Shown: in pieces, positions 44,351 to 48,237 of the stretch
How the letters are laid out: each line of letters opens with the position of its first letter
How positions within the stretch are numbered: the first letter of the stretch is position 1
NCBI GenBank assembly: GCA_014654415.1
Contig: JACWDC010000001.1
Span: 1 to 64,000, forward strand
Direction of reading: 5' to 3'
DNA length: 64,000 nucleotides
Source of the DNA: Pelagibacterales bacterium SAG-MED05
GTDB taxonomy: Bacteria; Pseudomonadota; Alphaproteobacteria; Pelagibacterales; Pelagibacteraceae
Position numbers and translations under genes: made by a program
The notes under the pieces: model-generated
Told to the model about the DNA's origin: nothing
The model's input: only the letters and a program-made list of their open reading frames with translations
The model's database searches: none

Positions 44351-44632
44351 TTGTCAAGACCCGAGCTCATTAAACTGCTTAAAAAGAAACATCCCAAACT
44401 CAATAAAATTCAATTAGAAAAAATCATTGATACTTTCTTTCAAAGCATTGAGGGTGCGTTGAATAAAAAAAGATCTATTGAATTACGTGGCTTTGGCACC
44501 TTCTTTATTAAAGAAATTAAAGAAAAATATTCTGCTAGAAATCCAAAAACAGGAGAGCTGATTTATGTGCCAAAAAAGAATAAGGTAAGGTTTAGAGCTA
44601 GTAAGCAATTTAAGGAATTTTTAAATCAATGA
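44351..44632 (+). CDS. ihfB: Integration host factor subunit beta
   Basis: A DNA-bending HU/IHF-family protein of 93 residues. The beta-arm signature is IELRGFGTFFIKEIKEKYSA followed by RNPKTGELI, ending in FRASKQFKEFLN. The start is TTG directly after the rpsA stop, and the rpsA-ihfB order is conserved in proteobacteria, so beta is preferred over alpha. The end overlaps pyrF by 4 nt. Confidence 0.93.
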   Translation: MSRPELIKLLKKKHPKLNKIQLEKIIDTFFQSIEGALNKKRSIELRGFGTFFIKEIKEKYSARNPKTGELIYVPKKNKVRFRASKQFKEFLNQ

Positions 44633-45288
44633 AAAAACCAAAGATATTTATAGCTTGTGATACTACAGATCTAACAAAAGTTAGAAAAATAATAGCTCAA
44701 TCACAAACAAATAAAATAAAAATTGGATATAAGTTCGGATTAGAATTTATGAACTCTAAAAATGGAAGGCAGTTTGTGTCCAAATTAAAAAATAAGATTA
44801 TTTTTGTTGATCTCAAATTAAATGACACGGTTCATACAATGTTATCAGCGGTGAAAGCAGTAAAAGATTTAAAAATAAATTACCTTACAGTCCACATTTC
44901 ATCGGGCTTAGCTGCTTTAAAAGCAGTCAAAAAAGTTTCAGGATCAATCAAGATTGTAGGGGTATCAACTTTAACGTCCCTAAATAACAAAGATTTAAAA
45001 ATAATAGGACACAAAAGATCAGTTAAAAATCTAGTAGCCCACCAAGCAGGACTTGCTAAAAGAGCAGCATTGGATGCTTTAGTCTGCAGTCCTTTTGAAG
45101 TAAATATTGTTAGGAAGAATTTTAAGAAAGAAATCATTACTCCAGGAGTGCAAATAGGTAAAAAAAACTATGATCAAAAACGGTCTATGGAGGCCAAAAA
45201 AGTCAACTCAGATTGGTTAGTCATAGGGCGTTCTGTTACGAGGGGAAATATTAAAAAAAATATTCAAAAGCTTATTAAATCATTATAA
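44629..45288 (+). CDS. pyrF: Orotidine 5'-phosphate decarboxylase
   Basis: The last step of UMP synthesis. The 219 residues have the catalytic DLKLND pattern (DxKxxD), LTVHISSGLAALKA, LDALVCSPFE, ITPGVQ and VIGRSVTR at the phosphate site. The residues after the catalytic motif, DTVHT, differ from the common DIPNT, but the charged network is intact. It lies between ihfB and trpB with an 8-nt gap to trpB, in the place where trpF is often found in related genomes. Confidence 0.9.
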   Translation: MKKPKIFIACDTTDLTKVRKIIAQSQTNKIKIGYKFGLEFMNSKNGRQFVSKLKNKIIFVDLKLNDTVHTMLSAVKAVKDLKINYLTVHISSGLAALKAVKKVSGSIKIVGVSTLTSLNNKDLKIIGHKRSVKNLVAHQAGLAKRAALDALVCSPFEVNIVRKNFKKEIITPGVQIGKKNYDQKRSMEAKKVNSDWLVIGRSVTRGNIKKNIQKLIKSL

Positions 45289-45296
45289 AAGAAATA

Positions 45297-46526
45297 ATGA
45301 TGAAGATTAAAAAGGGTATTCAGCTAATAGATCAGCACGACAAAAACTATATGTATGGTGGTAAGTTTGGTGGAAATTTCATTCCTGAAACCCTAAAAAA
45401 ACCCATTGATGACTTAACTAAATTATTTGCCAAACTTAGAAAAGATAAAAAATTTCTAAAAGAAAGAGACTATCACTTTAAAAATTATATTGGAGAACCC
45501 ACTCCTTTTATTAAATTAGAAAATTTAACTGAACATTTGAGGGGACCTCAAATTTATGCAAAGGTTGTTTCTGAAGCCAATGGAGGTGCTCATAAAATTT
45601 ATAATGCAACTGTTCACTGTTTAATAGCTAAAAGAGCAGGTAAAAAATATATCGTAGGAGATACAGGTGCTGGTTATGCAGGAAAAATGCTTTCTATGGC
45701 AGCTAAAAAATTTGGCCTTAAATGTAAAATTTTTATGGGTGCAAAAGATATTAAAAGACAAAGGCCAAATGTTGAGGCAATGAAAAAAAATGGGGCAGAA
45801 ATTGTGTCTGTAACGACCGGGAGTCAAACGTTAGTTGACGCTGTAAGTGAATGTATGAGATACTGGGTTTCAAATTGTGACACTACTCATATGTGTGTTG
45901 GTTCAACAGTTGGACCTAACATATTTATAAAGATTTGTGCATGGAGCACAGCCCAAATTTCAAGGGAATTGATTAAGCAAGTACGAGAAGAATTTGGAAA
46001 GATACCTAACAAATTAAAATTAATTAATTGTGTTGGAGGTGGTAGTTCCGCAGCAGGATTCTGGAATGAATTTATGGATACTCATGCCCAATTCATTGGG
46101 GTCGAAGCTGGAGGTCCAAGAAATAGTAAACTTCATGCAGCGCCATTAACTAATGGATCTAAAATTGGTATTCTTCATGGAGCTGCACAATACGTTATAC
46201 AAGATAAAGAAGGTCAGATAGGCTCAACCAAGTCAATATCTGCAGGCCTTGATTACCCAGGAATTTCTCCTCTTCATTGTTTTCTCAAAGACACAAAAAG
46301 AGCTAGTTACACTTCTGCAAGTGATGAAGAAGCACTTAAGGCTTATCAGTTGGTTTCAAAACTTGAAAACATCTCTCCTTCTCTTGAGCCTTCACATGCT
46401 TTTGCTGAAGCAATTAAATTAGCACCAAAATTGAAATCATCTGAAGTTATTATTGTTAACTCTTGTGGTGATAGTCTTAAAGATAAAGATATAATTAAAC
46501 AAAAATTAGGATCATACATAAGATGA
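45297..46526 (+). CDS. trpB: Tryptophan synthase beta chain homologue with an altered active site
   Basis: A fold-type II PLP enzyme of 409 residues, clearly of the TrpB1 family (FGGNFIPETL, AHK with Lys100, MGAKDIKRQRPNV, GGGSSA, SISAGLDYPG). Relative to the Salmonella enzyme, numbered with a constant offset of 13 at these sites, the PLP Lys87 is kept. The catalytic Glu109 is Asp122, His115 is Ala128, Lys167 (salt bridge to TrpA) is Val180, and Ser377 at the PLP ring is Cys390. The SGRGDKD motif reads CGDSLKDKD. It is followed by trpA with a 4-nt overlap. It could be a slow or modified tryptophan synthase or a new activity. Confidence 0.85.
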   Translation: MMKIKKGIQLIDQHDKNYMYGGKFGGNFIPETLKKPIDDLTKLFAKLRKDKKFLKERDYHFKNYIGEPTPFIKLENLTEHLRGPQIYAKVVSEANGGAHKIYNATVHCLIAKRAGKKYIVGDTGAGYAGKMLSMAAKKFGLKCKIFMGAKDIKRQRPNVEAMKKNGAEIVSVTTGSQTLVDAVSECMRYWVSNCDTTHMCVGSTVGPNIFIKICAWSTAQISRELIKQVREEFGKIPNKLKLINCVGGGSSAAGFWNEFMDTHAQFIGVEAGGPRNSKLHAAPLTNGSKIGILHGAAQYVIQDKEGQIGSTKSISAGLDYPGISPLHCFLKDTKRASYTSASDEEALKAYQLVSKLENISPSLEPSHAFAEAIKLAPKLKSSEVIIVNSCGDSLKDKDIIKQKLGSYIR

Positions 46527-47323
46527 AATCAAAAATTGCTATAGCTTTTGATAATTGTAAAAAGGAAAAAAGACCAGCATTAATTACATATACTGTTGCT
46601 GGAGATAACACTAAAAATAATTCTCTCAAAATTCTCAATAAAATATCAAAGCATGCAGATATTTTAGAACTTGGATTTGCACACAACACCCCCATAGCTG
46701 ATGGTGGACAAATACAAGGCAGCTCACATCGGGCTCTTAAAAATGGAATTAAATTAAAAGATGTTTTTCAAATTGTTAAAAATTTTAAAAAAAATAATCC
46801 TAGTAAGCCAATTATTCTAATGGGATATTTTAACCTGATTTATCAAAATGGTGAAAATAACTTTTTAAAAAACTGTAAATCATCAGGAGTAGATGGTTTA
46901 ATTATAGTTGATCTCCCTTATCCGGAGAATAAAAACTTTGCAAATAAGTGTAAAAGAAAATCAATAAATTTTATACAACTTCTATCTCCTACAACTTCAA
47001 AAGATAGAATGAAAAAGATTATTAGAGACTCGCATGATATGATTTATTATATTAGCATGCTGTCCACAACGGGTGGAAAATTAAAAGTTGCGCCAAGAAA
47101 AATTCTCGAAAACTATAAAAAAATAAAAAGGCTCAATAGCAATAAAAATCTAGTGATAGGCTTTGGAATAACAAATAAAACTATATCTTCTCTCAAAACA
47201 GCCGACGGACTAGTTGTGGGCAGTCAATTATGTAAAACTATTACTGATTCTATTAAGAAAAGACAAAATCCTGTCACAAAGTTAGATAAATTAGTATACA
47301 GTTTAAAAAATAACATTCTATGA
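46523..47323 (+). CDS. trpA: Tryptophan synthase alpha chain homologue
   Basis: A TIM-barrel protein of 266 residues that cleaves indole-3-glycerol phosphate. The catalytic Glu49 (ILELG) and Asp60 (IADGG) are both present, as are the phosphate-site residues of TTGG, GFGI and GS. The normally invariant PFSDP loop reads AHNTP (53-57), so Asp56, which pairs with Lys167 of TrpB, is Thr. Arg179 of the loop 6 region is Met. It overlaps trpB and accD by 4 nt each. Confidence 0.87.
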   Translation: MKSKIAIAFDNCKKEKRPALITYTVAGDNTKNNSLKILNKISKHADILELGFAHNTPIADGGQIQGSSHRALKNGIKLKDVFQIVKNFKKNNPSKPIILMGYFNLIYQNGENNFLKNCKSSGVDGLIIVDLPYPENKNFANKCKRKSINFIQLLSPTTSKDRMKKIIRDSHDMIYYISMLSTTGGKLKVAPRKILENYKKIKRLNSNKNLVIGFGITNKTISSLKTADGLVVGSQLCKTITDSIKKRQNPVTKLDKLVYSLKNNIL

Positions 47324-48237
47324 ATTGGATAACAAAATTTATAAAACCAAAAATCAAATCACTCTTTGAAAAAAGATCCTCAAAAATAAAAGAAAATCTC
47401 TGGACAGCTTGTGAATGTAAAAATTTAATTTACAAAGAAGATCTTCAATCTAATCTAAAGTGTTGTCCTAAGTGTGGAGCACATCATAAATTATCTTGTA
47501 AAGAAAGATTTGAAACTTTTTTCGATAACAAAGAATATGAATTAATAAAAACTCCATTACCAAAAGATGATCCTTTAAAATTTGAAGATAATAAAAAATA
47601 TATAGAAAGATTAAAATCAGCACGAAAAATTACACAACAAGATGATGCCGTTTCAATAGCAAAAGGTAAAGTTAAAGATATTGATGTAGTCGTAGGTGCT
47701 CAAGATTTTAGATTCATTGGTGGATCTTTTGGTGCTGCCTCTGGAGAAGCATTCATTGCAGGTGTTCAGCATTCTATAGAAAACAATATGCCATTTATTT
47801 TTTTTAGTTGTAGCGGCGGCCAAAGAATGATGGAGTCATCCATTGCTTTAATGCAAATGTCTAGAACAGCTTTAGCAGTGAACGAATTAAAGAAAAAAAA
47901 TATTCCTTATATTGTTGTTTTAACAAATCCTACAACCGGAGGTGTCACAGCTTCTTGGGCTATGTTAGGAGATATTTTAATTGCAGAACCTAAAGCAACT
48001 ATTGGTTTTGCAGGAAGACGTGTAATACAAGATACGGTAAGAGAAACTTTACCTGAAGAATTTCAAACAGCAGAGTATGTTAAAGATCATGGTGGTATTG
48101 ACCTTGTGGTTGAAAGAAAATATTTAAACTCAACTATAGGAACTTTCCTAAATGTATTGTTGAAAAAAGCAGAGGCTCAGGCTAAAAATGAGTCATCTAA
48201 TGTCACAATCGATCAATCTTTACAATCAGCTAGCTAA
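47320..48237 (+). CDS. accD: Acetyl-CoA carboxylase carboxyltransferase subunit beta
   Basis: Partner of AccA in malonyl-CoA formation, 305 residues. The N-terminal zinc ribbon has Cys49-Pro-Lys-Cys52, but the first pair is Cys31-Glu-Cys33 and not CxxC. The crotonase-fold core is good: FRFIGGSFGAASGEAF, FSCSGGQRMMES, LTNPTTGGVTASWAMLGD and IGFAGRRVIQDT. It overlaps trpA by 4 nt and folC by 38-50 nt, in the alphaproteobacterial trpBA-accD-folC order. Confidence 0.93.
   Translation: MNWITKFIKPKIKSLFEKRSSKIKENLWTACECKNLIYKEDLQSNLKCCPKCGAHHKLSCKERFETFFDNKEYELIKTPLPKDDPLKFEDNKKYIERLKSARKITQQDDAVSIAKGKVKDIDVVVGAQDFRFIGGSFGAASGEAFIAGVQHSIENNMPFIFFSCSGGQRMMESSIALMQMSRTALAVNELKKKNIPYIVVLTNPTTGGVTASWAMLGDILIAEPKATIGFAGRRVIQDTVRETLPEEFQTAEYVKDHGGIDLVVERKYLNSTIGTFLNVLLKKAEAQAKNESSNVTIDQSLQSAS

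Follow-up and report, generated by a model that had tools for sequence, protein, structure and literature searches.

A clade-wide Asp109 form of tryptophan synthase in Pelagibacterales with joint replacement of the alpha56/beta167 charge pair

The trpB-trpA locus and its products

The window, meaning the whole stretch of 64,000 nt analysed here (Pelagibacterales bacterium SAG-MED05, contig JACWDC010000001.1), carries a tryptophan synthase gene pair on its forward strand. The beta subunit gene trpB (45297..46526, +) encodes 409 aa of the SAR11 (Asp109) type, based on the ORF, the NCBIfam model TIGR00263 and the predicted fold, and the alpha subunit gene trpA (46523..47323, +) encodes 266 aa, based on the ORF, TIGR00262 and the predicted model. 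Both frames are intact, with a 4-nt overlap between them, in agreement with the initial annotation of this DNA. Directly upstream of trpB lies pyrF (44629..45288, +). The downstream neighbour in this conserved locus, accD (47320..48237, +; named from its translation and place), overlaps trpA, again by 4 nt.

The window TrpB narrowly passes the TIGR00263 cut-off (397.4 bits against 392.45), and TrpA passes that of TIGR00262 (212.7 bits against 102.35). Membership of the TrpB2 family was rejected, as TrpB scores 105.3 bits with TIGR01415 against a cut-off of 518.85; TrpB2 is a distant PLP relative of the window protein. The predicted model of TrpB has a mean pLDDT of 92.5, and the 50 matches listed by Foldseek against the PDB are all TrpB, with TM-scores of 0.88-0.92 by query length. 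For the TrpA model the mean pLDDT is 91.1, and the low blocks are residues 51-60 and 181-190, which belong to loops L2 and L6. The window's genome yielded one TrpB and one TrpA, and no second canonical copy of either gene was found in it; the single-copy claim is limited because this genome is 87% complete.

Replacements at the active site and the subunit interface

Residues are numbered after E. coli K-12 TrpB and TrpA, the reference to which the window proteins were aligned. TrpB carries E109D, Q114Y, H115A, K167V, N236S and S377C, and it keeps K87, R141, D305, E350, K382 and D383. The codon of the PLP lysine, K87, is at 45594..45596 (+), followed by Asp at the catalytic Glu109 position (45660..45662, +) and Tyr-Ala at Gln114-His115 (45675..45680, +). 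In canonical TrpB, Glu109 activates indole. Further downstream lie the Val at beta Lys167, the partner of alpha Asp56 (45834..45836, +), the Ser at Asn236 (46047..46049, +), and CGDSLKD in place of SGRGDKD at 377-383 (46464..46484, +). The Asn equivalent to Asn236 anchors the PLP phosphate, according to a passage of PMC6608616.

In TrpA, AHNTP replaces PFSDP and Thr replaces Asp56, and Glu49 and Asp60 are kept. Loop L2 from Glu49 to Asp60 reads ELGFAHNTPIAD (46667..46702, +), with Thr56 at 46688-46690, and loop L6 has Ser181-Thr182-Thr183 (47063..47071, +) where the canonical sequence is GVT or GIT; both positions were obtained by manual counting along the ORF. Passages of PMC6608616 describe the GVTG loop of TrpA as highly conserved and report that activity in the complex falls when alpha Asp56 or Pro57 is changed.

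The alignment bears out what the initial annotation had said of Asp109, Ala115 and the PLP lysine in TrpB, of the joint change of alpha-Asp56 to Thr and beta-Lys167 to Val, and of the AHNTP loop and the retained Glu49 and Asp60 in TrpA. Its reading of the C-terminal part of TrpB stood only in part. The replacement of Ser377 by Cys is real but is no departure, since Cys occupies this position in 43 of 62 canonical rows and Ser in 19, and it was rejected as a mark of the SAR11 type. The SGRGDKD motif, which had been described as gone, has lost RGD but is half retained: K382 and D383 stay in 169/169 SAR11-type rows, and G378 stays in 164/164 rows of an earlier row set (whose 63 canonical rows count E. 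coli twice). Two replacements had not been listed before, namely N236S, found in all 169 SAR11-type TrpB rows, and alpha-G181S, found in 157 of 162 SAR11-type TrpA rows.

Distribution of the Asp109 type

The TrpB alignment has 241 rows and 237 distinct sequences. Repeats of counted loci were excluded, as were stretches below 300 (TrpB) or 190 (TrpA) residues; 4 sequences are shared between groups, the named records and the family genomes overlapping in part. Asp109, by which SAR11-type rows are themselves defined, occurs in 169 of the 241 rows. The window's family supplies 84 of them and the sister family f114 another 5; the remaining 80 come from named records, all titled Pelagibacter, Pelagibacteraceae or Pelagibacterales. 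These records are the best 80 of a collection scan, with rarer hosts outside its reach. The other 72 rows have Glu109 and comprise 30 phylum-level rows, 28 class-level rows, E. coli, and 13 Pelagibacterales rows of other TrpB types, divided between the window's family (7) and f114 (6). The 5 of 11 loci with Asp109 in f114 are not a frequency, because the loci were picked to span its different TrpB types. K87 is present in 168 of the 169 SAR11-type rows, with an unread residue in the remaining one; in TrpA, Glu49 is present in 162/162 and Asp60 in 161/162.

A TrpB match (E up to 0.001) was obtained in 126 of 147 family genomes, a few of these matches being weak, partial or of other TrpB types, and in 52 of the 53 high-quality ones. 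With the same residues fixed across the clade, the idea of an oddity of one genome was rejected, and neither sequencing error nor drift in one genome can therefore explain them. The pair represents a known enzyme in a clade-wide variant form that most sampled SAR11 share, and is neither a one-off oddity nor a decaying gene.

Among the matches listed for 398 phylum genomes, TrpB identity shows a gap, the next value below 83% (same family) being 45%. A donor outside Pelagibacterales was rejected, as identity above 45% was seen only in the window's genome and G009, of the same family, among those matches. The 112 class genomes from outside the family reach 46%. In a phylogenetic tree of 62 chosen rows, which carries long-branch warnings (including L046 with L144), the Asp109 type forms one clade with full support.

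The tree also contains TrpBs from two genomes of the window's genus (L047 and L048, compared with L002) that group with other genera, and this placement suggests that the trpBA locus may have been exchanged among SAR11 lineages. Other highly diverged trpBA pairs occupy the same locus in L040 (3361-4479), L041 and L146, in L137-L139, and in L043-L045 and L147. The L040-type TrpA has Glu at Asp60, and the L137-type TrpB has Leu at Arg141. No close source of the L043 type was seen among 289 class genomes, the best identity being 41% among the matches listed. In genome G040 (L060, L030), listed as 100% complete, the longest TrpA frame has only 177 aa, and trpA may be broken or misassembled there.

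Joint change of alpha56 and beta167

By sequence, the alpha Asp56-beta Lys167 pair of canonical coupling is absent in the window. Across 228 TrpA/TrpB pairs, a basic residue at beta-167 occurs together with an acidic residue at alpha-56 in 62, and a non-basic residue together with a non-acidic one in 166, with no mixed combination, as expected from the earlier claim that the pair had changed together. When only distinct pairs are counted, the numbers are 61 and 163, again with none mixed. All 62 charged pairs have beta Lys167, with alpha-56 being Asp in 56 and Glu in 6. A second joint loss, with beta Leu167 and alpha Thr56, is found in the Pelagibacterales type of L043, L044, L045 and L147, which the tree places at a long distance from the SAR11 type (stems of 2.63 and 1.21 changes per site, respectively). 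Two further Pelagibacterales types have Lys167 with Glu56.

The weight of this pairing depends on how much else changed. Positions conserved at 95% in the 62 canonical rows were compared with the 84 SAR11-type rows, the 80 named loci being left out. Among 138 such positions in TrpB, 74 are kept and 18 are swapped for another fixed residue in the SAR11 type; among 37 in TrpA, the numbers are 20 and 4. On the SAR11 stem, 51 of the 138 and 9 of the 37 changed. If positions are taken as independent, the chance of a joint change at one named pair is ~0.09, and for the second type it is ~0.13.

These comparisons support co-evolution of alpha56 and beta167, with few independent events behind them, and most of the 228 pairs are related. 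Changed allostery is possible. One reading goes further and holds that alpha-beta allostery was re-wired or lost, the pair changing as a unit, so that the two subunits would no longer gate each other by way of the L2-H6 salt bridge. It would account for charges that are kept or lost jointly in every pair, for a second loss in a type far off in the tree, for the six charge-keeping Glu56/Lys167 pairs, and for the Ser at alpha-Gly181 in the conserved GVTG loop; against it, the independent events are few, with the chance probabilities given above, and other contacts may stand in for the salt bridge. We regard this reading as plausible and yet lean against it. It is compatible with the explanation that we prefer, an ordinary tryptophan synthase in a Pelagibacterales form.

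The tryptophan pathway and the missing trpF

In the window's genome trpE, trpG, trpD and trpC stand side by side, and a lexA-like ORF comes after them; trpD and trpC were named by family models, and trpE, trpG and lexA by reading the translations. Both trpC and trpD are present in 53/53 high-quality family genomes. Of the trpCDEFG set to which the initial annotation had pointed, four genes were thus found, but trpF was not: PF00697 gave no match in the window's genome, and a clade model from 16 trpF rows gave no divergent trpF among 10 candidates scored.

The gap is also visible at the locus. In many relatives trpF lies between pyrF and trpB, and in the window pyrF abuts trpB (45288-45297). 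This trpF is missing in 17 of 70 family loci (the window, L003, L006, L021, L031, L044, L045, L050, L051, L062-L064, L069-L072 and L078), where the 70 do not count L001, which repeats the window's locus; in the other 53, the pyrF and trpB frames are 549-623 nt apart. By genome, trpF was detected in 47 of the 53 high-quality family genomes with PF00697 and in 49 with the clade model, G070 being only a weak match.

HisA was considered as a substitute for TrpF. No column of the HisA alignment separates, at 60%, the 22 trpF-minus genomes (no trpF match by PF00697 or by the clade model) from 24 trpF-plus genomes, with 4 unsure genomes excluded. Positions 109 and 143 of PriA fall, we assume, in the HisA columns where we placed them, and there Glu109/Arg143 occurs in one of the 22 trpF-minus genomes (G001, L299) and not in the window's genome. 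This pair is typical of PriA according to a passage of PMC4732765. Among the trpF-minus genomes, G073, G108 and G120 have no trpB found either and G111 has only a trpB fragment, and these four may simply be incomplete. Given the lack of a recognisable trpF, the flow into TrpC and TrpA is a presumed one in the window's genome.

Selection and tempo

The NG86 dN/dS values between the window and seven relatives are 0.03-0.11 for TrpB and 0.05-0.12 for TrpA, with dS > 1 in 11 of the 14 comparisons. For the nearest relative, L003, dS is 0.59 (TrpB) and 0.52 (TrpA), and dN/dS is 0.05 and 0.08. The median TrpB identity is 78.8% within SAR11 (14 loci including the window), 43.3% to other alphas (31 loci) and 72.7% among those other alphas. 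The corresponding medians for AccD, which include some partial stretches, are 52.5%, 42.9% and 49.5%. Among the five locus proteins compared, TrpB shows the highest conservation within the clade, and its pattern is one of a long stem and a short crown.

The trpF-less loci could be read as a sign of relaxed selection, or of decay at an early stage, in a lineage that is losing tryptophan synthesis. The intact frames, the low dN/dS against the nearest relative and the clade-fixed residues speak so clearly against such a course that we consider it very improbable, and the initial annotation had likewise argued against decay.

HTCC1062 and the published record

Locus L054 (genome G026) is taken by us to be Ca. 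Pelagibacter ubique HTCC1062. Its TrpB is 80% identical to that of the window and has D109, Y114, A115, V167, S236 and C377, so that the replacements discussed here recur in L054 as well as across the 169 SAR11-type rows. The relevant passages describe growth of HTCC1062 in artificial seawater medium with pyruvate, glycine, methionine and vitamins (PMC13198564), and also with glycine, glycine betaine, pyruvate, DMSP and vitamins (PMC5069961); tryptophan is not among the nutrients listed in these passages on defined media. Taking L054 as HTCC1062, the case that the initial annotation had itself named against its reading, the same residues in SAR11 strains that are tryptophan prototrophs through this pair, is largely borne out.

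A 2008 Sargasso Sea metagenome paper placed the SAR11 TrpB in a distinct, single-copy trpB_1 cluster and concluded that, being single copy, it must function in tryptophan synthesis; trpF was missing in 3/37 SAR11-like contigs (PMC2395257, in the parts seen). The gene order given there is present in L054, and in the window too except for the missing trpF. The distinct TrpB cluster and the occasional absence of trpF agree with our observations; the parts of that paper that we saw do not go down to single residues, do not mention the alpha56/beta167 pairing and do not count trpF across genomes. In the open-licence literature we found no residue-level description of SAR11 TrpB or of the alpha56/beta167 pairing, no mention of E109D in tryptophan synthase and no assay of an Asp109-type enzyme. 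The cluster has thus been in print since 2008, and what appears new, within the open-licence literature, is the residue-level description and the pairing.

The initial annotation had raised a new reaction using indole or another nucleophile. Because all 72 other rows retain Glu109, sequence by itself does not dismiss a shift of reaction. A beta-replacement enzyme acting on another nucleophile, with tryptophan coming from outside or made in another way, would fit the change of Glu109 to Asp, the changes at H115 and N236 and the lack of trpF in the window's genome, but it sits poorly with trpC and trpD in every high-quality family genome, with the kept catalytic pair of TrpA and with the growth of HTCC1062 in media that list no tryptophan. 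A new reaction is not needed, because HTCC1062 grows without listed tryptophan and TrpB is single copy (PMC2395257, in part); the adjacent trpE, trpG, trpD and trpC point the same way, and we judge the alternative nucleophile very unlikely.

Proposed mechanism and implications

Our preferred explanation, to which we assign a probability of about 0.85, is that the pair is an ordinary tryptophan synthase in its Pelagibacterales form, whose active site has been remodelled and which is under purifying selection. TrpA, with Glu49 and Asp60 kept, would cleave indole-3-glycerol phosphate, and TrpB would join indole to the PLP-aminoacrylate formed from serine, with Asp109 as the general acid/base in place of Glu109. 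On the clade stem, a burst of change may have reshaped the pockets for indole and for the PLP phosphate (Q114Y/M, H115A, N236S) and, together with them, the interface at which alpha loop L2 meets beta helix H6 (alpha-D56T, beta-K167V); strong selection since then would have held the remodelled state. We infer that Asp109 stands in for Glu109, that tryptophan is what the enzyme makes in the window's species, and that closure and channelling proceed without the alpha56-beta167 salt bridge.

Compared with canonical TrpB1/TrpA of Salmonella and E. coli, the SAR11 type shares the predicted fold, Lys87, Arg141, Asp305, alpha Glu49/Asp60 and the arrangement as a gene pair with a short overlap. It differs in Asp109, Tyr/Met114, mostly Ala115, Ser236, the missing RGD motif, the missing alpha56-beta167 charge pair and, mostly, alpha Ser181. 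PDB 6duc, by its title a Salmonella-type beta-K167T mutant, lacks this salt bridge on the beta side; that is a single laboratory change, whereas in the window both partners differ naturally.

Tryptophan synthase is the model for substrate channelling and allostery, and it is a main scaffold for making unnatural amino acids. As a tentative and rather doubtful extension, the SAR11 complex may have swapped both the textbook catalytic acid and the inter-subunit bridge, so that catalysis and channelling would be controlled differently, with the paired loss occurring at least twice in Pelagibacterales and the isomerase step of trpF handed to another enzyme in some lineages, including the window's. 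The missing trpF is a concrete gap in the pathway to be solved, and a natural, clade-wide Asp109 form without the bridge, in very abundant ocean bacteria, offers a ready test of which textbook residues are required.
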